This document shows positions 1-23,152 of a DNA stretch of 35,523 bases, in pieces. The notes beneath the pieces were generated by a model, which worked only from the letters and a program-made list of their open reading frames with translations, was not told the origin of the DNA and searched no databases. The stretch's first letter is position 1. Each line of letters begins with the position of its first letter. The DNA comes from Actinophytocola xanthii (GTDB taxonomy: Bacteria > Actinomycetota > Actinomycetes > Mycobacteriales > Pseudonocardiaceae): NCBI RefSeq assembly GCF_001921205.1, contig NZ_MSIE01000093.1, forward strand, positions 1 to 35,523, written 5' to 3'. The position numbers and the translations under genes are program-made.

Positions 1-959
1 ACACCGGCCTGGGCGCTGGTCTCCTCGGCGCTGGCGGCAACCTGGTTCGCCACCATCGACAGCTCCTGGGCGGAGCTCTCCAGCGACACCACGCCGGTGG
101 AGATGGCCGTCACGGTCTGCTTCATGCTGTCGGTCGCCTTGTTCAGCGAGGCGGCCATGGCGCCGACCTCGTCCTTGGAGGACACCTGCACCCGCTTGGT
201 CAGGTCGCCCTCGGCGAGCGCGTCGAGCACCTTGGACACGTCGTTCAGCGGCCGGGTCACCGCCCGGGAGGCGACCAGCGCCAGGGCGATCGAGCACAGC
301 AGCGCGATGCCGGCCGAGACCAGCAGGACCGTGCGGCTGGAGCTGAAGGCGCTCTCCGCCTCGGCGAGCTGGGACACGGCGGCCGAATCGATCACGCGGT
401 CGATGTCGTCCAGCGCGCCCTGGATCAGCTTGACCTGGGGCGTGACCTGGGTGGCGCGGATCTCGTTGAAGGCGGCGCGGTCACCGGCGCGGGCGGCGCC
501 GATGTACGCGGGGTCGTTCAGGATCTGCTCGTAGTTGCCCCAGGCGTCCCGGAGCTGGGCGGCCGCGTCACGCAGCGCCTGGTTGTAGGCGACCGAGTCG
601 ATGCGGTCGAGCGCGGCGTCCATCGCGTCGGTGGCGGCGAGGAACGCCTCGTGCTCCGGGCCGTCGGAGGTGGCGATCCACTCGTCGACCAGGGACAGGA
701 TCCGGGCGTTCAGGTAGGCGGACTCCACCTCGCTGTGCGCGAGGGCCGGCTCGAGGGCCTTGTCGTTGATCGACTGCTGGCCGTCGCGCAGGTCGGACAG
801 GTTGAGGATCGACACGAAGGTGATGACGGCCATGCCGATGCTGGCGACGATCACCGCGGAGAGGATCTTCGTCCCCACCCGGAGGTTCCCCAGCTTGCCG
901 AAGAGTTTGCTCCCACGACCGGACGTCTGCGCCCCGCCGGAGAGTGTGGAGTCGGTCAT
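1..959 (-). CDS. Methyl-accepting chemotaxis protein, N-terminal part (runs off the window)
   Basis: Chemoreceptor that senses a ligand outside the cell and controls CheA. The 319 visible codons start at the ATG at 959. They show a short basic cytoplasmic N-terminus, a first membrane helix at about residues 31-52 (ILSAVIVASIGMAVITF), and a roughly 140-residue helical extracellular region of the four-helix-bundle type. A second helix (VLLVSAGIALLCSIALALVA) follows, then a HAMP domain (VTRPLNDVSKVLDALAEGDL) and the start of the signalling coiled coil (ASAEETSAQ). The methylation helices and the CheA/CheW-binding hairpin lie beyond base 1. The gene is downstream of cheA and cheW on the same strand, which supports a role in the same chemosensory array. 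No strong ribosome site is seen; AAGGGC lies rather far upstream. The family is certain; the ligand cannot be told. Confidence 0.93.
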   Translation of the reverse strand, partial: MTDSTLSGGAQTSGRGSKLFGKLGNLRVGTKILSAVIVASIGMAVITFVSILNLSDLRDGQQSINDKALEPALAHSEVESAYLNARILSLVDEWIATSDGPEHEAFLAATDAMDAALDRIDSVAYNQALRDAAAQLRDAWGNYEQILNDPAYIGAARAGDRAAFNEIRATQVTPQVKLIQGALDDIDRVIDSAAVSQLAEAESAFSSSRTVLLVSAGIALLCSIALALVASRAVTRPLNDVSKVLDALAEGDLTKRVQVSSKDEVGAMAASLNKATDSMKQTVTAISTGVVSLESSAQELSMVANQVAASAEETSAQAG

Positions 960-1035
960 GGCTGCCCATGCCCTTTCTGCTTGGTGCCGCGCTCCTGCGG
1001 CGGGTGGTGTTCTGGGTCGTCTTGGTGCAGAGGTC

Positions 1036-1065
1036 GGGTCCGGCGCCCCAGACGGCGCCGGACCC
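1036..1065. terminator. Strong GC hairpin between cheW and the receptor gene
   Basis: Perfect 12-bp arms (GGGTCCGGCGCC and its complement) surround a 6-base loop. An outer GAGG/CCTC pairing adds to the stem. The hairpin sits alone in the 149-base gap after cheW. No T-run follows on either strand, so it may be a factor-assisted terminator, an attenuator or an mRNA-stabilising stem that sets the ratio of CheA/CheW to receptor. Confidence 0.55.
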
Positions 1066-1108
1066 GGTCCTCTGATCGGCAGGCCCGTTCCCGACCTGCG
1101 AATTTTGG

Positions 1109-1534
1109 TCAGCCCGCTTGTACGGCGGCCCGGGCGTCCAGCGCGAGCATGAGCCGGTCGGCGAGCGGGAAGGTCGCGACGATCAGGTTCCGCACCGGAC
1201 CGGTCAGCGTGTCCGGCGGCGGCTCGGCCGAGTTGTCGTCGAGCTCGACGACGTCACCGATCCGGTCGACCAGCAGGCTGACCCACTCGTCCTCGGTGCG
1301 GACGATCACGTTCATCGCCCCGTCGCTGAGGTCGGTCGGCGGCAGGCCGAGCCGTACCCGCAGGTCCAGTGCGGCGATTACCTGGCCGCGCAGGTTGAAC
1401 AGCCCGCCGACGTGGGCCGGTGCGTGCGGGACCGGGGTGTACTCACTGAACGAGAGCACCTCCTGCACCCGCCCCACCTCGAGCCCGAAGAGCTGGTCGG
1501 CGACCTCGAAGGTCGCGTACTGCACCGTGGTCAT
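1109..1534 (-). CDS. cheW: Chemotaxis coupling protein CheW
   Basis: A 141-residue single-domain CheW adaptor, the usual size for the family. It bridges receptor tips and the CheA P5 domain in the cytoplasmic chemosensory array. The sequence shows the typical opening YATFEVADQLFGLEVGRVQE, the conserved core VGGLFNLRGQVIAALDLR (the NLRG loop is the family signature), and a C-terminal strand-helix pattern around VSLLVDRIGDVVEL. The ATG at 1534 follows the cheA stop by one base, and its ribosome site (TTGGAG) lies inside the end of cheA. The two genes are therefore co-transcribed and probably translationally coupled. Confidence 0.95.
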   Translation of the reverse strand: MTTVQYATFEVADQLFGLEVGRVQEVLSFSEYTPVPHAPAHVGGLFNLRGQVIAALDLRVRLGLPPTDLSDGAMNVIVRTEDEWVSLLVDRIGDVVELDDNSAEPPPDTLTGPVRNLIVATFPLADRLMLALDARAAVQAG

Positions 1535-1535
1535 G

Positions 1536-3839
1536 TCAGGACTCCAACAGGTACGGGGACGAGTGCTGCTCGTCGTCGTGGCTGAAGAAGCTCGAGTCCG
1601 CCGCCAGGATCGCCTGGCGCATGTCGAGCAGCTCGGTCACCTTCTCGTGGATGACCGTCGAGCCGTTGAGGCCGTTGTCGTTCAGACCGCTGCGCGGGCC
1701 GGCGTCCTCGACGATGTCCAGGATCCCGTCCACCGCCAGCGCCACGCTGTGGCCGCCGTCGGTGTAGACGATCGTGGACAGGGTCTCCCGGTCGTCCTCC
1801 GACCAGGCGCCGAGCAGCTGCGCCAGGCGCAGCACCGGCAGGATCCTGCCGCGGTACTGCACGACCTCGCGGCTGCCCACCCGCTCGACGGCGCTCACCG
1901 GGAACTCCTCCAGGCGGGTCACCATGCTCAGCGGGATCGCCACCCGGCGGTCCACCACGCGGGTGATCAGCAGGCGGTCGCGGCTGTCGTCCGCCCAGCG
2001 GTCGTCGTCGTTGCCGGCCACCTTCGCCGCGGCCCGCTCCACCGCACCGAGGTGCGACCGGCGTGCCAGCGACGAGACGTCGAGGATCAGGGCCACCTCG
2101 CCGTCGCCGAGGATCGTGGCACCGGCGTAGGAGCCGACGTCCTTGAACCGGGCGGCGAGCGGCTTGACCACGACCTCCTCGGTGTTCAGCACCCGGTCCA
2201 CGACCAGGCCGAACTGGTGGCCGTCGCCCTTGAGCACGGCGACGTAGATGTCCTGGTCGGGCCCGACGGCCTCGCCGCCGAGGGCGTTGGTGAGCCGGAT
2301 CAGCGGGAGCAGCTTGCCCCGCAGCCGGTACACGGGCGCACCGGAGACGTACTCGACCTTGCCGCCGGACTGGCTGTCGACGTAGACCAGCTCGTGCACG
2401 GCCATCTGCGGGATCACGTACCGCTTGCCGCCGTTCTCGACGATCAGCGCCTGTACGATCGCGAGGGTCAGCGGGATGGTCAGCCGCCAGGTCGTGCCCT
2501 TGCCGGGCACCGACTTCAGGTCGACCGCGCCACCGATGGCCTCGAGGTTCGTCCGGACGACGTCCATGCCGACACCGCGGCCGGAGACGTTGCTGACCTT
2601 CTGCGCGGTGGAGAAGCCCGGCCGGAACACCAGCTTGAGGATCTCGTCGGTGTCCATCGCCGCGAGCTGCCCCTCGGTGATCACGCCGCGCTTGACCGCC
2701 GTCGCGCCGACCTTGGCCGGCTCGATGCCGGCACCGTCGTCGGTCACCTCGACGATCACCTGACCGTGCTCGTGGTAGGCACGCAGCAGCAGCGTTCCCG
2801 TGCGGGACTTGCCGGCGGCCTCCCGCTCCTCCGGCGGCTCGACGCCGTGGTCGACGGCGTTGCGCACGAGGTGGGTCAGCGGATCCTTCACGGCCTCGAG
2901 CAGGCTGCGGTCGAGCTCGGTCTCCGCGCCCTCCATCACCAGCTCGACCTCGCGACCGCAGGCCTTGCTGAGGTCGCGGACGACCCGCGGCAGCTTGGAC
3001 CAGAGGTTCTTGATCGGCTGCATGCGCGTCTTCATGACGTTCTCTTGCAGCTCGCTGGTGATGATGTTGAGCCGCTGCGCGGTACGCGTGAGCGTCTGCT
3101 CGTTGGCCGCCTCGGCCGCGCGCACCATCTGGTTGCGCGTGAGCACCAGCTCACCGACCAGCCGCATCAGCTTGTCGAGCAGGTCGACGTCGACGCGGAT
3201 GGAGCTGTCGGCGACACCGCGCTTGCTCGTGCTCTCCATCTCGGCCGGGTCGGCCGCGGAATCGGCGGCCGGTGCGGCCGGTGCCGGCGCCGCGGCGGGC
3301 TCGGCGACCGGCTCCGCCACGGTGGCGACCGGCTCTGCCGCGGCCTCGACCGGGGCGGGCTCCTGCGTCGGCTCCGCCACGGCGGCGGGTGCGTCGGCGA
3401 CGGGCGCGTCCTCGACGGCGGCATCGGGAGACGCGTCGGCGTCGGCCGGGGGCTCGCCGGTCATGCAGGCGTGCACCTCGTCGACGACGGCCTTGATCTC
3501 CACCTCGCCCTCTTTGCCCGTGCGTTCGATCTCGCCGAGGAGCTCGCGCACCACGTCGATCATGAGTAGCAGCACGTCGGTCGACCTGCGGTCCAGAACC
3601 TGGGTGCCGTCCCGCAGCCGGGCGAGCAGCGACTCGCCGGCGTGGGTCACCTCTTCCAGGCGGTGGAACGCGAGGAAACCGCTCGTGCCCTTGATGGTAT
3701 GAATCGTTCGGAAGATGCTCGCCAACCGGTCACGCGCGGTTGGCTCCTGCTCGAGCGCGATCAGATCGCGGTCGAGCTGGTCAAGGTTCTCATAACTCTC
3801 GACCAGGAACTCCTGAACGATGTCCTCGAATTCGTTCAC
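1536..3839 (-). CDS. cheA: Chemotaxis histidine kinase CheA with two CheW-like domains
   Basis: Cytoplasmic kinase that phosphorylates itself and passes phosphate to CheY/CheB. The chosen GTG start at 3839 has GGAGG five bases upstream. An in-frame ATG at 3851 would add four residues but lacks a good ribosome site. From the GTG the protein has 767 residues. In order it has an HPt domain with phospho-His47 (RTIHTIKG), an Ala/Pro/Glu-rich linker of about 100 residues, and the P3 dimer helices (DLLDKLMRLVGELVLTRNQ). The ATPase follows, with N box HLVRNAVDHG, G1 DDGAGI and G2 GRGVGMDVVR. Two CheW-like modules follow in tandem: one from about LIVENGGKRYVIPQ, the second from about DRLLITRVVDRRVAIP. 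The classical enzyme has only one. A separate P2 domain for binding CheY is not obvious and may be lost in the low-complexity linker. Confidence 0.95.
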   Translation of the reverse strand: MNEFEDIVQEFLVESYENLDQLDRDLIALEQEPTARDRLASIFRTIHTIKGTSGFLAFHRLEEVTHAGESLLARLRDGTQVLDRRSTDVLLLMIDVVRELLGEIERTGKEGEVEIKAVVDEVHACMTGEPPADADASPDAAVEDAPVADAPAAVAEPTQEPAPVEAAAEPVATVAEPVAEPAAAPAPAAPAADSAADPAEMESTSKRGVADSSIRVDVDLLDKLMRLVGELVLTRNQMVRAAEAANEQTLTRTAQRLNIITSELQENVMKTRMQPIKNLWSKLPRVVRDLSKACGREVELVMEGAETELDRSLLEAVKDPLTHLVRNAVDHGVEPPEEREAAGKSRTGTLLLRAYHEHGQVIVEVTDDGAGIEPAKVGATAVKRGVITEGQLAAMDTDEILKLVFRPGFSTAQKVSNVSGRGVGMDVVRTNLEAIGGAVDLKSVPGKGTTWRLTIPLTLAIVQALIVENGGKRYVIPQMAVHELVYVDSQSGGKVEYVSGAPVYRLRGKLLPLIRLTNALGGEAVGPDQDIYVAVLKGDGHQFGLVVDRVLNTEEVVVKPLAARFKDVGSYAGATILGDGEVALILDVSSLARRSHLGAVERAAAKVAGNDDDRWADDSRDRLLITRVVDRRVAIPLSMVTRLEEFPVSAVERVGSREVVQYRGRILPVLRLAQLLGAWSEDDRETLSTIVYTDGGHSVALAVDGILDIVEDAGPRSGLNDNGLNGSTVIHEKVTELLDMRQAILAADSSFFSHDDEQHSSPYLLES

Positions 3840-4053
3840 CAGACCCTCCATTTCAGGCTGACCCGTCGATCGGCACGTGGACCGGTGAGCTGAGGGATTC
3901 GTCCTCCGGAGGAAGGTCCCGGTCCGGCGGTGTCCCCGGTCGGGACCTTCGCCCCTCCGCACGCGGTGCCACCGGCCCTGCCCGCGACGCGCCCGGCGAA
4001 CGACGCTGGTGGTGGACGAGAACGGTGGACGAGAACAGCGTGAGGAGGCCGAC

Positions 4054-4308: not shown

Positions 4309-4496
4309 GCGGCCGGCGCGAGGCCACCGCTGCGTGATGGCGGTGGCCCCGGCCACCCGGTCGGGTGGTCCCTCGGGGTGGCGTGGCGGTGTGGGCCGTT
4401 CAGAAGCCCTCCGCACGTGCCGATGCCCACCGTGATGAGCGAGCGCGAGCGACCCGGACCGAGCGCGCTGTCCGGTCGGACCCGTCCAGTGCCGGC

Positions 4497-6563
4497 GTGA
4501 ACCGTTCCAGCGGTCTGCTGAGCCGTCGTCCCGTCCGGTGGCAGCTGCGGGTGTTGGTGACCGCGGTCTGCGTGTTCATGCTCCTCGCCTGCGGTGCGAC
4601 CGTGTACTCGCTGCTCGCGCAGAGTGCGACGGTCACCCAGCTCACCACCGTGATCGGTCCGGCCCGGGACGCCAGTGCCACCGTCCTGCAGGCGATGACC
4701 GACGCGGACAACGCGCTGGCGACGGCCCAGGCCACCCGGAGTGCGGCGCCGGCTGAGCGGCTCGCGGCCGCGCGTGAGCGCGTGGGGGAGGCCCGGCGTG
4801 TGGCCCGAGACCTGCTCGCGCACCCCTCGCTCGGCGAGCGGGACCGCGAGGCGTACCGCCGGCTCCAGGACGAGCGGGACCGGGCGCTCACCGCGTGGTG
4901 GGACTACGCCGACGACGCGTTCGCCCGCGTGGCCGCCGGGCTGCCGGTCGACGCGACCACCCGCGAGGTGCTGCTCGACCGCTTCCGGGCCGAGCACATC
5001 GCGCTCACCGACAAGCTGGTGGCCAACCGCGACGCGCTGCGGACCGCCACCCGCGAGCTCGTCCCGGACGCGACGCTGGTGACGCTGGGGGCGACCGGGC
5101 TGGTGCTGGTCGGCGTGATGCTGGTGGCCAGGCGCACGGCCCGCTCGCTGACCGTGCCGATCGCCGGGCTGCGCTCGGTCGTCCAGCGGATCGAGGCCGG
5201 AGACCTGTCCGCGCGGGCCGACGCTGGCGCCGGCGCGCGCGAGGTGCGGGATCTGGCCGCCGCGTTCAACACCCTCGCCGCCGACCAGGCCGAAACGCTG
5301 CGCCTGCACGAGGTCGCGCTCGAGGTCGAGCTGACCGTCCGCGCGGTGTCCACGGTGCGCGAGGCCATCGAGGCGGTGTGCGCCTCGATCGGCCCGCCGC
5401 TCGCCGCCGACCGGGTGGTGATCAGCCTCGTCGACCCGAGCGGCGAGATCGTCCGGTCCACCCAGTGGCACGTCGAGGGCCTGCCCGACTTCCCGCCGGA
5501 CGTGAGCCCGTACGCCGGACCGGTCGCCGAGGAGCTCTGGCGGCGGTCCACCTACCTCGCCGTCGCCGACGTCCGCGCCGAGGGCGTCAAGCACGACCCG
5601 CGGATCGCCCCCTTCCGCCGCGAAGCCGACACCCGCGGCCTGCTCGTCGTGCCGATCGGGCTCGCCGAGCGCCCGCTGGGCACGATCGCGGTCAGCGACG
5701 GCACCGGGCCGCGGGCATGGCGAAGCGCGCAGATCGCGTTGGTGCACCACGTGGCGGCCGCGCTCGCGCACGCGATCGCCGAGGTCGACTACCGGGAGCA
5801 CCAGGCCCAGCACGTCGCCCGGCTCGAGCGCCTCGACCGGCAGAAGGACGACTTCCTGTCCACGGTCAGCCACGAGCTGCGCACCCCGCTCGCGTCGATC
5901 AGCGGCTACCTCGAGCTGCTGCTGGACGGCGACGCGGGGGAGGTCACCCCCGAGCAGCGGCACATGCTCCAGGTCATGGAGCGCAACGGGGTCAGGTTGC
6001 GAGCGCTGGTCGAGGACCTGCTCGCGATGAACCGCGCGGAGTCGAGCCATGTCCGGGCGGACACCGCGGTGGAGCTGGCCGGGGTCGTGGGCGCCACGGT
6101 CGAGGAGCTCCGGCCGCTGGCCGAGAAGAACGGGGTCGGGCTCGAGCTGAGCCTGGGCACCGATCCAGGGCCGGTGCTGGGCGACCGGGAGGACCTGCAG
6201 CGCGCGGTGGGCAACATCGTCTCGAACGCGGTCAAGTTCACCCCTCGGGGCGGCCAGGTCCGCGTCTCCCACACCGGCGACCCGGCCACCGGCGAGGTCG
6301 TCGTCACCTGCTCGGACACCGGGATCGGCATCCCCCGGGCCGACCTGCCCCACCTGACGACGCAATTCTTCCGGGCCGGCAACGTGGCGGGCGACGTGGT
6401 CCCGGGGACCGGGCTGGGGCTCGCCATCGTCAAGGCCGTCGTGGACGCGCACGGTGGGCAGCTGACGGTCGACTCCACCGAGGGGCGCGGCACCGTCGTC
6501 ACGCTCCGGTTCCCCACGCTGGCCCCCGTCACCGCGAGATCGTCCGAAGTGCACACTCCGTGA
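4497..6563 (+). CDS. Membrane sensor histidine kinase (HAMP-GAF-HisKA-HATPase)
   Basis: Two-component sensor, 688 residues from the GTG at 4497. An upstream in-frame GTG at 4365 would add 44 residues, but codons there have many A/T third positions, unlike the rest of the gene. No start has a convincing ribosome site, so the N-terminus is uncertain. Membrane helix 1 is near residues 16-38 and helix 2 near 193-212. The region between is helical and extracytoplasmic. A HAMP domain follows (GLRSVVQRIEAGDLSARAD), then a GAF-like domain at about 285-425. HisKA carries phospho-His459 (STVSHELRTPLAS). The ATPase has N box NIVSNAVKFTP, G1 DTGIGIP and G2 GTGLGLAIVKA. All catalytic motifs are intact. 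The response regulator gene 43 bases downstream is the likely partner. Confidence 0.93.
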   Translation: MNRSSGLLSRRPVRWQLRVLVTAVCVFMLLACGATVYSLLAQSATVTQLTTVIGPARDASATVLQAMTDADNALATAQATRSAAPAERLAAARERVGEARRVARDLLAHPSLGERDREAYRRLQDERDRALTAWWDYADDAFARVAAGLPVDATTREVLLDRFRAEHIALTDKLVANRDALRTATRELVPDATLVTLGATGLVLVGVMLVARRTARSLTVPIAGLRSVVQRIEAGDLSARADAGAGAREVRDLAAAFNTLAADQAETLRLHEVALEVELTVRAVSTVREAIEAVCASIGPPLAADRVVISLVDPSGEIVRSTQWHVEGLPDFPPDVSPYAGPVAEELWRRSTYLAVADVRAEGVKHDPRIAPFRREADTRGLLVVPIGLAERPLGTIAVSDGTGPRAWRSAQIALVHHVAAALAHAIAEVDYREHQAQHVARLERLDRQKDDFLSTVSHELRTPLASISGYLELLLDGDAGEVTPEQRHMLQVMERNGVRLRALVEDLLAMNRAESSHVRADTAVELAGVVGATVEELRPLAEKNGVGLELSLGTDPGPVLGDREDLQRAVGNIVSNAVKFTPRGGQVRVSHTGDPATGEVVVTCSDTGIGIPRADLPHLTTQFFRAGNVAGDVVPGTGLGLAIVKAVVDAHGGQLTVDSTEGRGTVVTLRFPTLAPVTARSSEVHTP

Positions 6564-6606: not shown

Positions 6607-6981
6607 GTGGCGCGGGTGCTCGTGGCGGAGGACGACCCCGACCTGCGGGGAATGATCGAGTTCAAGCTGGCGTCCGCCGGCCACGAGGTGACCGTCGTCG
6701 CGGACGGCGACGCGGCCATGACCAGCGCCAGGGCGGCCCCGCCGGACCTGGCCGTGCTCGACGTGATGATGCCGGGCATGTCGGGAATCGAGGTGTGCGA
6801 GGCGCTGCGGGCCGACCCGGTGACCGCCGCCACGCCGATCATCATGCTGACGGCCAGGGCGCAGAGCGCCGACGTCAGCCGCGGCCTCGCGGCCGGCGCC
6901 GACGAGTACCTCGTCAAGCCGTTCAGCCCGCGCAGCCTGGTCGAGCACGTGGAGAAGCTGCTCGCCGCGGCCGCCAGCTGA
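6607..6981 (+). CDS. Receiver-only response regulator
   Basis: A 124-residue protein that is a complete receiver domain with no output domain, like CheY or Spo0F. The acidic pocket is Asp9-Asp10, the phosphoacceptor is Asp52 (LAVLDVMMPGMSG), and the switch residues are Thr82 and Lys104 (YLVKPF). The GTG start at 6607 follows a strong purine-rich site (GGAGGGAGGG). It lies 43 bases after the histidine kinase stop, so the two form an operon. With no DNA-binding domain it must act by protein contact, either in a phosphorelay or on a partner such as a membrane enzyme. The cheA genes nearby make a chemotaxis role possible too, but the kinase next door is the simpler partner. Confidence 0.93.
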   Translation: MARVLVAEDDPDLRGMIEFKLASAGHEVTVVADGDAAMTSARAAPPDLAVLDVMMPGMSGIEVCEALRADPVTAATPIIMLTARAQSADVSRGLAAGADEYLVKPFSPRSLVEHVEKLLAAAAS

Positions 6982-6989
6982 CGTGCCAG

Positions 6990-7403
6990 CTACCGGTGGA
7001 AGCTGACGACGATCGCCGCGTTGCTCCCGCGCTGGCCGTGGGTGTCGCAGTGGTAGCTGGTGGCGCTGTGGCCCTGGACGGATCCCCAGCTCCGCCAGGC
7101 GCAACGGGTCGTCGTGCCGGTCCCGATCCGGAGGTCCGCGTGGAAGAAGAGGCTCCCGTGCAGGCCGAAGACCCAGACGGTCGCGTCGGTGACGGTGACG
7201 CCGTCCGGGGCGACGGTCGTGGTGATCCTGGCGAGGGTGGCACCGGTGGCGGTGACCGTGGCATAGCCGGTGCGCGTGGCCGGCACCGACACCGCCGCGG
7301 TGCTGGCCGGGGTGAGCCGCGGCAGCACGGCGGCCAGCGCGACCACGAGACCGACCACGGCGGCGACCGCGGCCGTGATCCGGCTCTTGCGGGTCGGCGC
7401 CAT
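6990..7403 (-). CDS. Small secreted protein, paralogue of the product at 7617-8006
   Basis: The ATG at 7403 follows GAGGGAGAAG and gives 137 residues. The N-terminus is a signal peptide or anchor: basic MAPTRKSR, then a hydrophobic stretch AAVAAVVGLVVALAAVL, then a small-residue region. The mature part is short and rich in beta-strand residues (TVTATGATLARITTTVAPDG), with two cysteines 18 residues apart, so a disulfide is plausible. It aligns by eye with the plus-strand product at 7617: GYxTxTxxGAT, DGxTxTxA and GLxG blocks, then the Cys pair and a short hydrophobic final strand. I do not recognise a named family. It ends 8 bases from the response regulator stop (convergent) and is divergent from its paralogue. 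A longer minus-strand reading frame upstream of 7403 is antisense to the neighbours and is not supported. Confidence 0.65.
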   Translation of the reverse strand: MAPTRKSRITAAVAAVVGLVVALAAVLPRLTPASTAAVSVPATRTGYATVTATGATLARITTTVAPDGVTVTDATVWVFGLHGSLFFHADLRIGTGTTTRCAWRSWGSVQGHSATSYHCDTHGQRGSNAAIVVSFHR

Positions 7404-7616: not shown

Positions 7617-8006
7617 ATGAAGTCGCGCAAGGCCGTCGCCGTCCGTCGGGTGCTTCCGGTTCTCGCCGTCGCCGTCCTGGTTCTGCTGATCGGGCGCGCC
7701 GCGTTGGCCAGCAACAGCGTGGGCACGACCGTTGGTGGTTACGGCACCGGCACGGTCTCCGGCGCCACGGTGCAGAACGTCTCCTACACGTTCAGCGCCG
7801 ACGGCACGACGATCACCGGCGCGAGCCTGAGCCTCACCGGTGACCTCACCGGCAAGGTCGTCGCGGCGGGCTTCAACTCCGCGGCCCTGTCCACCTGCGT
7901 GACCGGCACCTACACCGCCGCCACCAACATCACCACCGCGTCCTGCAGCGGGTTCGCGCAGAACACCGCGGCCGCCGGCACCCTCGCCGTCGCGGTCCGG
8001 CAGTAA
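7617..8006 (+). CDS. Small secreted protein, likely signal-peptidase cargo
   Basis: A 129-residue protein; the ATG at 7617 follows GAGGAG. The signal peptide is clear: MKSRKAVAVRR, hydrophobic VLPVLAVAVLVLLIG, then RAALA before SNSVG, so cleavage after ALA at about residue 31 is likely. The mature part of about 98 residues is rich in Thr, Ser, Ala and Gly and reads as alternating beta strands, with two cysteines 16 residues apart. It resembles the minus-strand product at 6990-7403. The next gene, 8 bases downstream, encodes a SipW-type signal peptidase fusion. This is the arrangement seen where a dedicated peptidase processes its own substrate, as with TasA/SipW or camelysin. A surface or matrix protein is an inference; no family was recognised. 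Confidence 0.8.
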   Translation: MKSRKAVAVRRVLPVLAVAVLVLLIGRAALASNSVGTTVGGYGTGTVSGATVQNVSYTFSADGTTITGASLSLTGDLTGKVVAAGFNSAALSTCVTGTYTAATNITTASCSGFAQNTAAAGTLAVAVRQ

Positions 8007-8014
8007 CACCTGGC

Positions 8015-10150
8015 ATGCCGCAACCGCCGGGCACGGCAACCCACCGCATCAGGACGGTCGCGCTGACCATCACGTCGGCCGCCGTCCTGATCGCGATCGG
8101 GCTCCTCGTGCTCGGCGGTTTTCGCCTTGTCGTCACCCGCGGCGACAGCATGGAGCCGCACTTCTTCGCCGGTGATCTCGTCCTGGTCCACGAGCAGCCG
8201 CAGTACCGGGTCGGCGACGTCGTCGCCTACGACAGCCCGAGCCTGGGCATCACGATGCTGCACCGCATCGTCGGCGTGCGCGACGGCGGCTTCGTCACCC
8301 GGGGCGACAACAACGACTGGGACGACCCGGACCTGCTGACCGCGACGGACCTCAGCGGACGCCTGGTCCTGCGGATCCCGAGGGCCGGCGCCATGATCGA
8401 GTCGCTGCGCGGCCCGGTCGGCAGCATCCTCGTGGGGACGCTGTTCCTCGCGGTACTCGCGATCGCGTGGGGACAACGGTCGAGACGACGCAGACGGAGA
8501 CGCCAGATGCCCCCGACCGGCCAGCACCGCGCACCCGTCGTGGCCGCGCCGCGCCGGCCGGCGCCGACCGAGCGGGGCAGGCGTTCCCGGGTTCCCGCCG
8601 TGCTGGTCGCCGTCGCGACGCTGCTCGCGGTCGCGGCGGTCTGGTCGGCGCCCCGGCCGGCCTCCGCCACCGCCCCGGTCATCCCGCAGGACACCCTCGC
8701 GGTGAGCTACGAGGCGGCGGTCCCGGCCGGCGCCACCTACCCGAACGGTCGGGTCGCCACCGGGGACCCGATCTTCCTCAACCTCGTGCGCACGCTGACC
8801 GTCCGCGCCGCGCACTCCGGGCCCGCCGCCGGCCCGGTGACCCTCACCGCCCGGCTCGAGCACCCGAGCGGCTGGCGCCGCCCCGTGCCGCTGTCGACCA
8901 CGAGCGAGGACGGGAGCTCCTCCGCCACCCTCGACCTCGACGCGGTGTCGGCCACGCTGACCGGCCTGACCACCGAGACCGGCCTGCCCACCACCGGCGC
9001 GATGCTCATCGTGCTGCCCGCGGTCGGCTCCTGGTCCACCCAGGCGCGCTTCACCTTCGACGGCGTCCAGCTCACCCCCGACCCGGCCACGCTGACCGCG
9101 ACCAGGCAGGCCGCGCCCACGGCGGCCGCCGCGCCCGAGACCGGCTACCGCGCGGTCCTCGCGCCGCTCGGCCGGCTGCTGCCCGACTGGCCGCTGCGCC
9201 TGGCCGCGACGTTCGCCCTGCTGGCACTCGGGGCGGTCGCGGTGTGGCTGCTCCGCCGGCCGGCGGACCCGCTGCGCGCGCACCGGATCGTCCCGGTCGC
9301 CGAGTACGCGCCCGGCGCGGGCCGCACGCTCGTCGAGCTGCCCGCGCCGGCCCCGCTCGCCCGCCTGGCCGAGGCGGAGAACCTGCCGATCTTCCGGTCC
9401 GAGACCGCGGCGGGCGTCGAGTTCTTCATCGACGACGGTGCGGTGGTCTACCGCTACCGCCCCGAGCCCGGCCTCGAGCCGGCCGCGCTCGGCTACTTCG
9501 CCGACAGGCTGGCGGCCGAGATCGTCGGTCGCATCGCGACCGAGTTCCGGGCGCCGCTGGCCACCATCCAGGGCTACACGGAGATGCTCACCGACGCCCC
9601 CAACGGGTCCGCGGTCCCCGCCCAACGCACCATGCTCGAGGCCATCGACCGGGGGGTGAACCGGCTGCACGAGCTGATCGACGACGTGACCGTCCTGGCC
9701 GAGCCGCCCAGCGAGTACCCGGACACGATCGAGGTGCGGGACCTGCTCGCCGCCGGCACCCGCCCGCTGGCCGAGGCCCTGCGCGAGCGCGACACGCGGC
9801 TCACGACCAGCCTGGACGGGGACGTTCCCCGGGTCGTCGGCGACCGGGAGAAGCTCGTCTGGGCGCTGGGTGAGCTGGTCGACGCCGCCTCCCTGGAGGT
9901 CGGAGCCGGCGGCCGGCTGACCGTCCGGGCCAACCGGGACGGCGACGAGGTCGTGCTGACGATCACCGGGCAGACCGCTTCCGGCGGGAACGGAGCCAAT
10001 CCGGACCAGGCACCCCGCGACGGGCTGGCCGACTCCGTCGCCGTTGTGATCGTGGACCGCCACGGCGGGTCCGTCGAGCGGACCACGACGCCGACCGGGG
10101 CCACGATCACCGTGCGCCTTCCCGCGGAGACCCCCACCCGGACCCGGTGA
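8015..10150 (+). CDS. SipW/ER-type signal peptidase fused to a DUF5305-like domain and a degenerate histidine-kinase core
   Basis: 711 residues. A first membrane helix at about 14-36 is followed by the S26 peptidase: nucleophile Ser45 in TRGDSMEP, His83 in MLHRIVGV in place of the bacterial Lys (the ER/archaeal/SipW type), and the Asp box at GDNN (Asp98). Helix 2 is at 135-153, then an Arg-rich loop, and helix 3 at 193-210. An extracytoplasmic beta-rich domain at about 220-365 resembles DUF5305 from memory. Helix 4 at 394-413 leads to a cytoplasmic part. Residues 500-705 follow the HisKA/HATPase layout (IATEFRAPLATIQGYTEML, then VDRHGGSVE), but the phospho-His is Thr509, the N box reads ELVDAAS, and the G1 and G2 glycine motifs are gone. 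It should therefore neither phosphorylate itself nor bind ATP normally. The peptidase should be active; the tail looks like a pseudokinase. The ATG at 8015 lies 8 bases after the upstream gene and has no strong ribosome site, so translational coupling is likely. Confidence 0.88.
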   Translation: MPQPPGTATHRIRTVALTITSAAVLIAIGLLVLGGFRLVVTRGDSMEPHFFAGDLVLVHEQPQYRVGDVVAYDSPSLGITMLHRIVGVRDGGFVTRGDNNDWDDPDLLTATDLSGRLVLRIPRAGAMIESLRGPVGSILVGTLFLAVLAIAWGQRSRRRRRRRQMPPTGQHRAPVVAAPRRPAPTERGRRSRVPAVLVAVATLLAVAAVWSAPRPASATAPVIPQDTLAVSYEAAVPAGATYPNGRVATGDPIFLNLVRTLTVRAAHSGPAAGPVTLTARLEHPSGWRRPVPLSTTSEDGSSSATLDLDAVSATLTGLTTETGLPTTGAMLIVLPAVGSWSTQARFTFDGVQLTPDPATLTATRQAAPTAAAAPETGYRAVLAPLGRLLPDWPLRLAATFALLALGAVAVWLLRRPADPLRAHRIVPVAEYAPGAGRTLVELPAPAPLARLAEAENLPIFRSETAAGVEFFIDDGAVVYRYRPEPGLEPAALGYFADRLAAEIVGRIATEFRAPLATIQGYTEMLTDAPNGSAVPAQRTMLEAIDRGVNRLHELIDDVTVLAEPPSEYPDTIEVRDLLAAGTRPLAEALRERDTRLTTSLDGDVPRVVGDREKLVWALGELVDAASLEVGAGGRLTVRANRDGDEVVLTITGQTASGGNGANPDQAPRDGLADSVAVVIVDRHGGSVERTTTPTGATITVRLPAETPTRTR

Positions 10151-19470: not shown

Positions 19471-19498
19471 CCTGATGGCGCTCTGGAGCGAGGGCAGC

Positions 19499-22400
19499 AT
19501 GAAACAGAACCAGCTCGGTCGGCGGTTGGTCGCCGGAGTCCTCCTCGTCGCGGGTCTGCTCGTTCCCGGGCTTCCCGCCCCAGCCGCCCAGGTCGCGGCC
19601 GAGCCCCGCCAGGACAGCGAGGCGGCGGCAGGTGTCCTGCTCGACCGCACTCTCTCGGCGAGCAGCGCGGTGTCCGGCTACCCCGTCGCCAACGCGGGCG
19701 ACGGCAATCGGGGCTCCTACTGGGAGAGCGCGAACAACGCGTTCTCCCAGTGGATCCAGGCCGACCTCGGCTCCGCGACCGGGGTGAGCCGGCTGGTGCT
19801 GCGGCTGCCGGCCCACTGGGAGGCCCGTGCCCAGACACTGACCGTCGGCGGCAGCACCAACGGGACCTCGTTCGGCACGCTCGCCGCCTCGACCCGCTAC
19901 GCCTTCGACCCCGCGAGCGAGAACACCGTCACGGTCACGCTGCCCGGCACGAGTGTCCGCTACGTTCGGCTGACCGTCACCGCCAACACCGGCTGGCCGG
20001 CCGCGCAGCTCGCCGAGTTCGAGGTGCATGGCAGCGACCCCGGCGGAGACGTCCAGGCGCCGACCGCGCCCGGCAACCTGAGCCTCGCCCAGCCCGCCGC
20101 CGGCCAGGTGCGGCTGGCCTGGACCGCCGCCGGCGACGACGTCGGTGTGACCGCCTACCTCGTGTACCGCGACGGTGTGCTCGTCGCGACGCTGGGCGGC
20201 ACGGTCCTCACCCACCTCGACACCCCGCCCGCCACCGCGACGGTGTCCTATGTGGTGCGTGCGAGAGACGCCGCGGGCAACGAGTCGCCGCCCAGCAACA
20301 CGGTCACCCGGCCGGGTTCAGGTTCGGCCGGGCCGAACCTGGCGGCCGGCAAGCCGATCGAGGCGTCCTCGACCGTCCACAACTTCGTCGCGACCAACGC
20401 CAACGACAACAACGTCGCCACCTACTGGGAGGCAGGCGGGCACCCCTCGACGCTGACCGTGCGGCTCGGCGCGAACACCGACCTCAGCTCGGTCGTCGTC
20501 GCGCTCAACCCCGACCCGGTCTGGGGCCCGCGCACGCAGAGCATCCAGGTGCTCGGCCGTGAGCAGTCCGCGACCGGCTTCACCTCGCTCGTGGCCAGGG
20601 CCGACTACGCCTTCACGCCGTCGGTCGAGCAGAACTCGGTGTCGATCCCGGTCCAGGGCCGAGTCGCCGACCTTCGGCTGCAGTTCTTCGCCAACTCCGG
20701 CGCCCCTGGCGGGCAGGTCGGCGAGCTGCGGGTGTTCGGCACGCCGGCGCCCAACCCCGACCTGGTCGTGAGCTCGGCGGCCTGGACGCCGGCGGCCCCG
20801 AACGAGACCAGCCGGATCACCCTGTCCGCCACCGTCCGCAACACCGGTAGCGCGCCCTCGGCCGCGACCACGGTGGCCTTCACCCTCGGCGGCGGAGTCG
20901 TGGGCAGCGCGCCAGTCGGTGCGCTGGCGGCCGGCGCCTCGGCGACCGTCTCGCTGGAGGCCGGGACGCGGCCCGCGGGCAGCTACCCCCTCTCCGCGAC
21001 CGTCGACCCGACCGACGCCGTGGTGGAGCAGGACAACGCCAACAACACCCACACCGCGCCGGAGCCGCTCGTCGTCGCGCCCGCACCCGGACCGGACCTG
21101 CTGGTCACCGCCGTCACCGCGAGTCCGCCCACCCCGGCCGTCGGCGAACGGGTCTCGTTCACCGTCGCGGTGCACAACCGCGGCACGAGTACGGCGGGCG
21201 CGACCGTCACCCGGCTCTCGGTCGGCGGGACGACGCTCGACACCGACACCCCGGCGGTCGCCGCGGGCGCGACGACGTCGGTCGCGGTCCGCGGCACCTG
21301 GACCGCGACCACCGGCGGCGCCTCGATCACCGCGACCGCCGACGCCACCGGCGCCGTCGCCGAGACCAACGAGGGCAACAACGCGTTCTCCCGCACGATC
21401 GTGGTCGGCCGCGGCGCGGCGCTGCCCTACGTCGAGTACGAGGCGGAGTCCGGGCAGTACCAGGGAACGCTGCTCGAGGCCGACCCGCTGCGCCCGTTCG
21501 GCCACACCAACTTCGCCAGCGAGTCCTCCGGCCGGCGCTCGGTGCGCCTGACCGGCACCGGCCAGTACGTCGAGTTCACCTCCACCGCGGCGGCCAACTC
21601 GATCGTGGTCCGCAACTCGATCCCCGACGCCCCGGGCGGCGGCGGCATCGACGCGACGATCAGCCTCTACGTCAACGGCATCTTCGACCGGAAGCTGACC
21701 CTCTCCTCCCGGCACAGCTGGCTCTACGGCAACACCGACGACCCCGAGGGGCTGACCAACACCCCGCAGGCCGACGCCCGCCGGCTGTTCGACGAGTCCT
21801 CCGCCCTGCTGGCCCGGTCCTACCCGGCCGGCACCCGGTTCCGGCTCCAGCGCGACGCGAGCGACACCGCGGCCTTCTACGTACTGGACCTGGTCGACCT
21901 CGAGCAGGTCGCCCCGCCCTCGTCCCAGCCGCCCGGCTGCACCTCGATCACCCAGTACGGCGCGGTTCCCGACGACAACGGCGACGACACCACTGCCATC
22001 CAACGGGCCGTTACCGACGACCAGAACGGGGTCATCGGCTGCGTCTGGATCCCGCAGGGACGGTGGCGTCAGGAGCAGAAGATCCTCACCGACGACCCGG
22101 ACAACCAGGGGCAGTACAACCAGATCGGCATCCGTGACGTCACGATCCGCGGTGCCGGCATGTGGCACTCCCAGCTGTTCACGCTGACCGAGCCACAGAA
22201 CGCCGGCGGGATCAACCACCCGCACGAGGGCAACTTCGGGTTCGACATCGACCGCAACACCCAGATCTCCGACATCGCGATCTTCGGCTCCGGCCGGATC
22301 CGGGGCGGCGGCGGGGCCGAGGGCGGAGTCGGGCTCAACGGCCGGTTCGGCACCGGGACCAGGATCACCAACGTATGGATCGAGCACGCCAACGTCGGCG

Positions 22401-23152
22401 TCTGGGTCGGCCGGGACTACGACAACATCCCGGCGCTGTGGGGTCCGGCGGACGGGCTGGAGTTCACCGGCATGCGGATCCGCAACACCTACGCCGACGG
22501 CATCAACCTCACCAACGGGAGCAGGAACTCGCGGGTGTTCAACTCCTCGTTCCGCAACACCGGTGACGACTCACTCGCCGTCTGGGCCAACCGGTACGTC
22601 CGCGACCCCGCGGTCGACATCGCGCACGACAACCAGTTCGTCAACAACACGATCCAGCTCCCGTGGCGCGCCAACGGCATCGCGATCTACGGCGGGTACG
22701 GCAACCGGATCGAGAACAACCTGGTCTTCGACACGATGAACTACCCGGGCATCATGCTGGCCACCGACCACGACCCGCTGCCGTTCTCCGGGCGGACGCT
22801 GATCGTCAACAACGGCCTGTACCGCTGCGGCGGCGCCTTCTGGGGCGAGCAGCAGAAGTTCGGCGCGGTCACGTTCTTCCCGCAGACCAGGGACATCCCC
22901 GGCGTGACGCTGTCGGACACCGAGATCGTCGACTCCACCTACGACGGGATCCAGTTCAAGTCGGGCGGCGGGAGCGTGCCAGGGGTCGCGATCACCAACG
23001 TGCGAATCGACGACTCCAACAACGGAGCGGGAATCCTCGCCCAGAACGGTGCCCGCGGCAGCGCGACGCTGACCAACGTCACGATCACCAACTCGGCGAC
23101 GGAAGACATCGTGATCGAGCCAGGCTCGAGCTTCGTGATCAACGGTACTTGA
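19499..23152 (+). CDS. Secreted multi-domain GH87-type alpha-1,3-glucanase (mycodextranase/mutanase group)
   Basis: 1,217 residues from the ATG at 19499, preceded by GGAGCGAGGG. Signal peptide: MKQNQLGRRLVAGVLLVAGL to about residue 32. In order: a discoidin-like (F5/8C) carbohydrate-binding module (about 40-180), fibronectin III (180-275), a second discoidin-like module (278-413), two CARDB repeats (418-530, 535-637), a CBM35-like module (about 640-805; YVEYEAESGQYQG), then a right-handed beta-helix (about 810-1217; ITQYGAVPDDNGDDTTAIQ). Three Asp occur at 1000 (ADGINLT), 1023 and 1024 (TGDDSLA). The spacing of 23 and 24 equals that of the catalytic Asp triad I recall for Bacillus and Paenibacillus GH87 enzymes. 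It should cut alpha-1,3-glucan of fungal walls or biofilm. The exact linkage specificity needs testing. Confidence 0.85.
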   Translation: MKQNQLGRRLVAGVLLVAGLLVPGLPAPAAQVAAEPRQDSEAAAGVLLDRTLSASSAVSGYPVANAGDGNRGSYWESANNAFSQWIQADLGSATGVSRLVLRLPAHWEARAQTLTVGGSTNGTSFGTLAASTRYAFDPASENTVTVTLPGTSVRYVRLTVTANTGWPAAQLAEFEVHGSDPGGDVQAPTAPGNLSLAQPAAGQVRLAWTAAGDDVGVTAYLVYRDGVLVATLGGTVLTHLDTPPATATVSYVVRARDAAGNESPPSNTVTRPGSGSAGPNLAAGKPIEASSTVHNFVATNANDNNVATYWEAGGHPSTLTVRLGANTDLSSVVVALNPDPVWGPRTQSIQVLGREQSATGFTSLVARADYAFTPSVEQNSVSIPVQGRVADLRLQFFANSGAPGGQVGELRVFGTPAPNPDLVVSSAAWTPAAPNETSRITLSATVRNTGSAPSAATTVAFTLGGGVVGSAPVGALAAGASATVSLEAGTRPAGSYPLSATVDPTDAVVEQDNANNTHTAPEPLVVAPAPGPDLLVTAVTASPPTPAVGERVSFTVAVHNRGTSTAGATVTRLSVGGTTLDTDTPAVAAGATTSVAVRGTWTATTGGASITATADATGAVAETNEGNNAFSRTIVVGRGAALPYVEYEAESGQYQGTLLEADPLRPFGHTNFASESSGRRSVRLTGTGQYVEFTSTAAANSIVVRNSIPDAPGGGGIDATISLYVNGIFDRKLTLSSRHSWLYGNTDDPEGLTNTPQADARRLFDESSALLARSYPAGTRFRLQRDASDTAAFYVLDLVDLEQVAPPSSQPPGCTSITQYGAVPDDNGDDTTAIQRAVTDDQNGVIGCVWIPQGRWRQEQKILTDDPDNQGQYNQIGIRDVTIRGAGMWHSQLFTLTEPQNAGGINHPHEGNFGFDIDRNTQISDIAIFGSGRIRGGGGAEGGVGLNGRFGTGTRITNVWIEHANVGVWVGRDYDNIPALWGPADGLEFTGMRIRNTYADGINLTNGSRNSRVFNSSFRNTGDDSLAVWANRYVRDPAVDIAHDNQFVNNTIQLPWRANGIAIYGGYGNRIENNLVFDTMNYPGIMLATDHDPLPFSGRTLIVNNGLYRCGGAFWGEQQKFGAVTFFPQTRDIPGVTLSDTEIVDSTYDGIQFKSGGGSVPGVAITNVRIDDSNNGAGILAQNGARGSATLTNVTITNSATEDIVIEPGSSFVINGT

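Follow-up and report, generated by a model that had tools for sequence, protein, structure and literature searches.

Signal peptidases are usually treated as constitutive, and the catalytic dyad of the archaeal/ER-type enzymes consists of a Ser and a His, the His replacing Lys. SipW of Bacillus subtilis is described as required for exporting TapA and TasA, which are encoded in the same operon as SipW, and, in addition, a second role in surface-adhered biofilms is reported (PMC4238804)—a precedent for a signal peptidase with a further role. DivL of Caulobacter crescentus is described as lacking kinase and phosphatase activity and as binding DivK~P via the docking surface of its DHp domain (PMC4211667). 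An evolved ChrS pseudokinase of Corynebacterium glutamicum is reported to act on the kinase HrrS by pairing (PMC9491836), and the title of PDB entry 7n0e has RetS acting on GacS by pairing. The protein described here, encoded in a window of 35,523 nucleotides from a soil-type actinomycete—the whole stretch of DNA that was analysed—features a predicted signal peptidase and a kinase-like tail in one chain.

Layout of the fused protein

The fused protein of 711 residues is encoded at 8015–10150 of the forward strand in a single frame that is open over all 711 codons and carries a coding signal throughout; it is one chain, as the earlier note had read it. Hydropathy places hydrophobic stretches near residues 14–33, 131–153, 193–212, and 392–414, with a strongly basic segment at approximately 155–191 between the second and the third. 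According to the positive-inside rule, the peptidase site and region 213–390 would lie outside and the chain end would be cytoplasmic. GC3 ranges from 0.91 to 0.99 per domain, with 0.86 at residues 645–680. In-frame codon log-odds stay positive across the junction between the peptidase–DUF5305 part and the tail. The join lies within the few residues that separate the end of DUF5305 from the first DHp helix, and the 227 codons beyond it (residues 485–711) have a GC3 of 0.95, show codon log-odds of 0.54–1.08 per codon in frame and negative values in the other two forward frames, and contain neither a stop nor a frameshift.

The archaeal/ER-type signal peptidase domain (8015–8479, forward strand; approximately residues 1–155) features two membrane helices as judged by hydropathy. 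Its scores are above the cut-offs of TIGR02228 for archaeal-type signal peptidase I (63.6 bits; cut-off 51.85) and of Pfam Peptidase_S24 (27.8; cut-off 23.3) and below those of Pfam Peptidase_S26 (18.4; cut-off 22.9) and of the equivalog NF046067 for SipW of Bacillus (30.0 bits; cut-off 190). Ser45 and His83, which had been named as marks of an active enzyme, are found at these positions and are invariant in an alignment of five family sequences, as is the motif GDNN at 97–100, consistent with a predicted peptidase.

The third membrane helix is followed by a DUF5305-like extracytoplasmic part (8651–9184, forward strand; approximately residues 213–390) and by the fourth membrane helix with the cytoplasmic end of this domain (9185–9466, forward strand; approximately residues 391–484), the latter delimited by hydropathy and relatives. 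The 711-residue protein itself has no match to PF17231, and the best Pfam match of residues 165–490 has an E-value of 0.91. The assignment comes from four relatives of 511–597 residues (L025, L027, L028, and L029) that align over their whole length with residues 1–484 and all match PF17231, two of them above the cut-off of 29. The five sequences align across the entire DUF5305 region at 28–32% identity to the 711-residue protein. In the four relatives, DUF5305 takes in the ectodomain's end, the final membrane helix, and approximately 65 cytoplasmic residues. The "extracytoplasmic domain" of the earlier note is therefore right as to the ectodomain, but the DUF5305-like domain runs on via the membrane helix into the cytoplasm.

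Distribution of the three parts

Used as a query, the peptidase part matched 23 of the 296 genomes examined for the class, and the four relatives named above come from these matches. At 1e-6, and with only the best few candidates per genome scored, the middle-part alignment matches eight of the 394 genomes examined for the class, 32 of the 298 for the order, and one of the 390 for the family. The single family match is the source genome itself, and with this alignment no other family member reaches 1e-6. Since the DUF5305 part is not found in these 389 family relatives, the peptidase–DUF5305 unit looks acquired; its place in a tree of 34 sequences is weak. Two weak ectodomain matches, L023 (1.9e-4) and L024 (7.3e-4), were set aside.

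The class and order lists overlap in G000 and G508, which yields 38 genomes, and the loci of 36 were read. Peptidase and DUF5305 share one frame at 33 of the 36 loci; the DUF5305 frames without the peptidase are L055, which is cut by a contig end, L056, and L084. In one further frame, L083, a stop intervenes, so that the C-terminal end can be read in 35 DUF5305 frames. Among these, 34 stop 1–50 residues past the DUF5305 match, and the window frame alone continues, for 226 residues more, into a kinase-like tail. The earlier note had known of no such three-part fusion. This is borne out for the tail, unique in the 35 frames, but peptidase and DUF5305 in one chain are already usual, and the novelty is the kinase-like tail only.

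Genome G143 encodes the peptidase (L026) and DUF5305 (L056) in two adjoining frames, either separate genes or a frameshift, an arrangement that suggests the two parts may be separate. In other members of the bacterial family, the signal peptidase frames L014 and L015 continue into Laminin_G_3 (53 and 83 bits; cut-off 27.6)—possibly a peptidase and an exported domain in one chain—and L016 closely resembles L015. Among plasmid records, 22 matches were obtained; the kinase-like part accounts for 19 and haloarchaeal signal peptidases for three, and none of the 22 covers 80%. Single queries with the tail, the peptidase, or the neighboring kinase against viral contigs yielded no confirmed relative; with the kinase alignment A3 as query, 15 ordinary kinase loci were matched.

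The upstream small secreted protein

A small secreted protein is encoded at 7617–8006 of the forward strand, eight bases upstream of the peptidase gene. A homologous gene, recognized by alignment and by a cargo HMM, is the immediate upstream neighbor of the DUF5305 frame, in the same orientation, at all 21 loci, i.e., the window and 20 neighborhoods (L085–L104) from 20 of the 37 other matching genomes; two of these loci, L091 and L093, had no part in building the HMM. Where intact, the protein has 120–145 residues. This constant upstream position makes the small protein the likely substrate of the peptidase, which would probably cleave it. Neither the protein nor its relatives score above any curated cut-off of NCBIfam or Pfam, including those for SipW-dependent cargo of the TasA/camelysin type. 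The survey thus reveals a strictly paired two-gene unit without a name in actinobacteria, consisting of the small secreted protein and the peptidase–DUF5305 protein. At L084/L104 (genome G699), the gene for the small secreted protein precedes the DUF5305 frame as elsewhere, although no peptidase part was found at an E-value of 0.01. The window also encodes another relative of the small protein, more weakly matched and divergent from the first, at 6990–7403 of the reverse strand (E-value of 8.7e-5 and 18.5 bits with the cargo HMM). The two divergent genes are separated by 213 bases, which may hold putative promoters of both.

The kinase-like tail

The tail starts with a DHp-like helical hairpin (HisKA; 9479–9700, forward strand; residues 489–562), followed by a CA-like domain (HATPase; 9722–10126, forward strand; residues 570–704). 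HisKA matches residues 504–562 with 36.0 bits and, hence, above the cut-off of 26.9; HATPase_c reaches 22.7, or 25.2 with the tail scanned alone, below the cut-off of 26.4. In the alignment with working kinases, the site of the phospho-acceptor His is occupied by T509, the N box reads ELVDAASLE (NIVSNAVKF in the adjacent kinase), G1 is replaced by a loop without the Asp, G2 reads DGLADSVA, and the F box and the lid are deleted. The Thr located four residues after the acceptor His in kinases, a residue that matters for phosphatase activity, is an Ala in the tail. The tail has lost the residues for ATP binding of the usual kind and for phosphate carriage. The earlier note had called the tail a pseudo-histidine kinase, citing Thr509 and the loss of the N, G1, and G2 boxes; all of these are found, and the deleted F box and lid extend the list.

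The AlphaFold2 model of the tail features the DHp hairpin and the CA fold at a mean pLDDT of 79.8 and a pTM of 0.70, its input being an alignment of 16 kinase cores that steers the prediction toward a kinase fold. Most of the CA part has a pLDDT above 85, which drops to approximately 59 only at the missing lid. The full-length model is poor (pLDDT 63.9; pTM 0.39) and contains the same tail elements. The structure check that the earlier note proposed thus predicts a HisKA/HATPase fold and does not give the outcome without such a fold that was to speak against it. Among the Foldseek matches listed, the tail model finds ZraS first (2.1e-15) and also DivL (2.7e-13), and the full-length model finds DivL first (1.4e-15); for both models, every match listed is a histidine kinase or another protein containing a core of this kind, phytochromes among them. 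A PDB sequence search with the tail has DivL as the best of 21 matches (7e-13), followed by ZraS (2e-8).

The adjacent kinase is the closest relative of the tail in its own genome, and in an order-level search, L109 (9.2e-17) is as near to the tail as this neighbor (2.0e-16). Trees of 47 and 31 kinase cores, one of them built without viral-contig rows, L007, L144, L148, and L149, show the tail on a long branch and do not place it. The data do not reject a clade that unites the tail with the adjacent kinase, L106, and L109 (p-AU 0.436), and an exclusive pair of the tail and the adjacent kinase is borderline (p-AU 0.049). An origin of the tail by duplication of the neighboring kinase is possible on these sequence comparisons. 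The tail, which is known from one sequence, was compared with 46 kinases at the columns that these conserve; it retains 47 of the 74 structural columns and 8 of the 19 catalytic ones. Each of the 46 kinases retains at least as many structural columns. A selective loss of catalytic columns was considered as well and is not significant (Fisher p 0.12).

The neighboring kinase and receiver

The adjacent frame, open from 4365, encodes a HAMP–GAF–HisKA–HATPase histidine kinase with intact motifs (4551–6563, forward strand), recognized by profiles and alignment and a candidate partner of the tail. It is followed by a single-domain receiver (6607–6981, forward strand; Response_reg, 101 bits) as a candidate docking partner. 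In six-frame ORFs, a kinase core and a receiver are present at the window, the one locus with a tail; neither was detected at 1e-3 in any of the 20 other neighborhoods of 5.3–17 kb. The sole tailed peptidase of the 21 loci is thus the sole one with a kinase and a receiver adjoining—a single case, yet a telling one.

The docking surface of DivL comprises residues 553, 557, 561, 562, 565, 579, and 582 (PMC4211667). At the seven equivalent positions, the residues are RAGYMRL in the tail and RAGYLRL in the adjacent kinase, i.e., six of seven are equal, whereas the next-best of 31 own-genome cores shares four with the tail. Of these cores, 30 represent 31 of the 45 other HisKA matches, and L007 is outside that list. 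Random draws of seven DHp positions reach six matches with the adjacent kinase in 1.9% of cases, and L021, an unrelated kinase from outside the genome, has five of the seven as in the tail. At the five specificity positions named in the title of PDB entry 4jas, which were examined before the seven, the tail equals the adjacent kinase in two; the best other own-genome kinases also reach two, and L020 and L021 reach four. The five positions give no support for a specific match, whereas the seven do. The earlier proposal that the tail docks to the neighboring kinase or receiver gains indirect support: the seven-position surface and the confinement of the kinase–receiver pair to the tailed locus favor such putative binding, whereas the five-position set does not. 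The note's other idea, a tail that reports on cargo folding, draws no support from these analyses.

The window also encodes, at 3–3851 of the reverse strand, a chemoreceptor-like protein (HAMP, 4HB_MCP_1; cut by the window end), CheW, and CheA, the latter at 1536–3851 near the kinase–receiver pair. The receiver could serve this CheA instead or be shared with it. The adjacent kinase (4365–6563) has no match at 1e-80 in five genomes of the same genus, but its own genome contains two further copies at 50% identity; taken together, the whole neighborhood may be acquired. Alpha-1,3-glucanase catalytic domains occur together with CARDB and F5/8 type C domains in a large protein encoded farther downstream, at 19475–23152.

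Proposed role of the tail

The tail may let the neighboring signaling pair control or monitor the export of one small partner protein. The observed basis comprises the architecture, the loss of active-site motifs, the predicted fold, the conserved upstream gene, and the lack of such a tail at all other loci sampled. Our tentative preference, held with somewhat less than even confidence, is that the tail is a noncatalytic docking module that links a dedicated signal peptidase to the neighboring two-component pair. A dedicated archaeal/ER-type peptidase, which would remove the signal peptide of the upstream-encoded protein, would have gained a cytoplasmic pseudo-histidine-kinase tail that retains the DHp surface for receiver docking. 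The most likely partner would be the receiver at 6607–6981, phosphorylated by the kinase at 4551–6563. Via docking, the state of the pair would place, dimerize, or gate the peptidase, and the altered pairing or location would change the release of the upstream protein. The cleavage of the upstream protein, the kinase–receiver pairing, the receiver binding, and the effect on the peptidase are all inferred steps. It is rather doubtful that, in the narrower form of this scheme, the phosphorylated receiver docks on the dead-kinase tail and switches the cleavage of one exported protein without a transcription step.

The docking residues common to the tail and the adjacent kinase may be mere ancestry since this kinase is the closest own-genome relative. 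The same kinship, together with the predicted DHp hairpin, fits the main working rival, in which the DHp helices of the tail pair with themselves or with those of the adjacent kinase and thereby cluster the peptidase or restrain the kinase. Heterodimers of ChrS and HrrS, reported from two-hybrid assays, are a precedent for such pairing (PMC9491836). The DHp identity of 36% between the tail and the adjacent kinase, however, is judged low for heterodimers, and pairing is considered unlikely, though to be taken seriously. The main null explanation is that the tail is a decaying remnant of a kinase-gene fusion, still in frame and without function, and that the peptidase works without it. Its position as the lowest of 47 kinase cores at conserved structural columns, its long branch, and its occurrence in one of 35 readable DUF5305 frames speak for decay; the 227 uninterrupted codons with their high GC3 and positive log-odds, the confidently modeled CA part, and the retained docking positions speak against it, and we regard this explanation, too, as improbable at about one chance in several.

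Two further explanations carry little weight. The fusion is known from a single genome in 204 contigs, and an assembly error could have placed a peptidase gene in front of the last part of a kinase gene, as the earlier note had warned. The join, however, is in frame and at a domain border, GC3 and codon signal run evenly over it, and a misjoined active kinase should retain the His and the ATP motifs, both lost here; judged by its sequence, the junction is not an obvious join, nothing points to an assembly error, and such an error is very unlikely. The HisKA score above the Pfam cut-off would suit a tail with remaining kinase or phosphatase activity, in which Thr509 or some other residue is the acceptor. 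With the N box, the G1 Asp, the lid, and G2 gone and the Thr past the acceptor changed to Ala, this is scarcely credible.

Comparison with known systems

The closest systems are the actinobacterial signal peptidase–DUF5305 proteins, which have PF17231 at the C end and for which no name in use was found. Like the window protein, they comprise a peptidase, an ectodomain, a fourth helix, and a cytoplasmic end and are preceded by a gene for the small secreted protein; in contrast, none of the 34 readable others features a kinase-like tail. The literature search found no paper mentioning DUF5305 and, among titles and abstract openings of the matches listed, no fusion of a peptidase and a kinase core. 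SipW features a peptidase of the same type as the window protein and, to our knowledge, neither a DUF5305 nor a kinase-like domain. ChrS and RetS are comparable to the tail in being kinase-like, and their action on another kinase works through pairing; we know of neither being joined to a peptidase.

If the docking reading is true, a pseudokinase on the peptidase chain would place the export of one cargo directly under signaling control, and the window protein would be, as far as we know, the first signal peptidase that is itself an output, or a sensor, of two-component signaling. The dead kinase core would then serve as an input port, as in DivL. Both proteins feature a pseudo-histidine-kinase core, and the docking-surface Arg, Gly, and Tyr of DivL are retained in the tail. 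DivL is described as having a Tyr at the acceptor site, a retained ATP lid, and PAS domains (PMC4211667), whereas the window protein has a Thr at the acceptor site, a deleted lid, and a signal peptidase as its other half.
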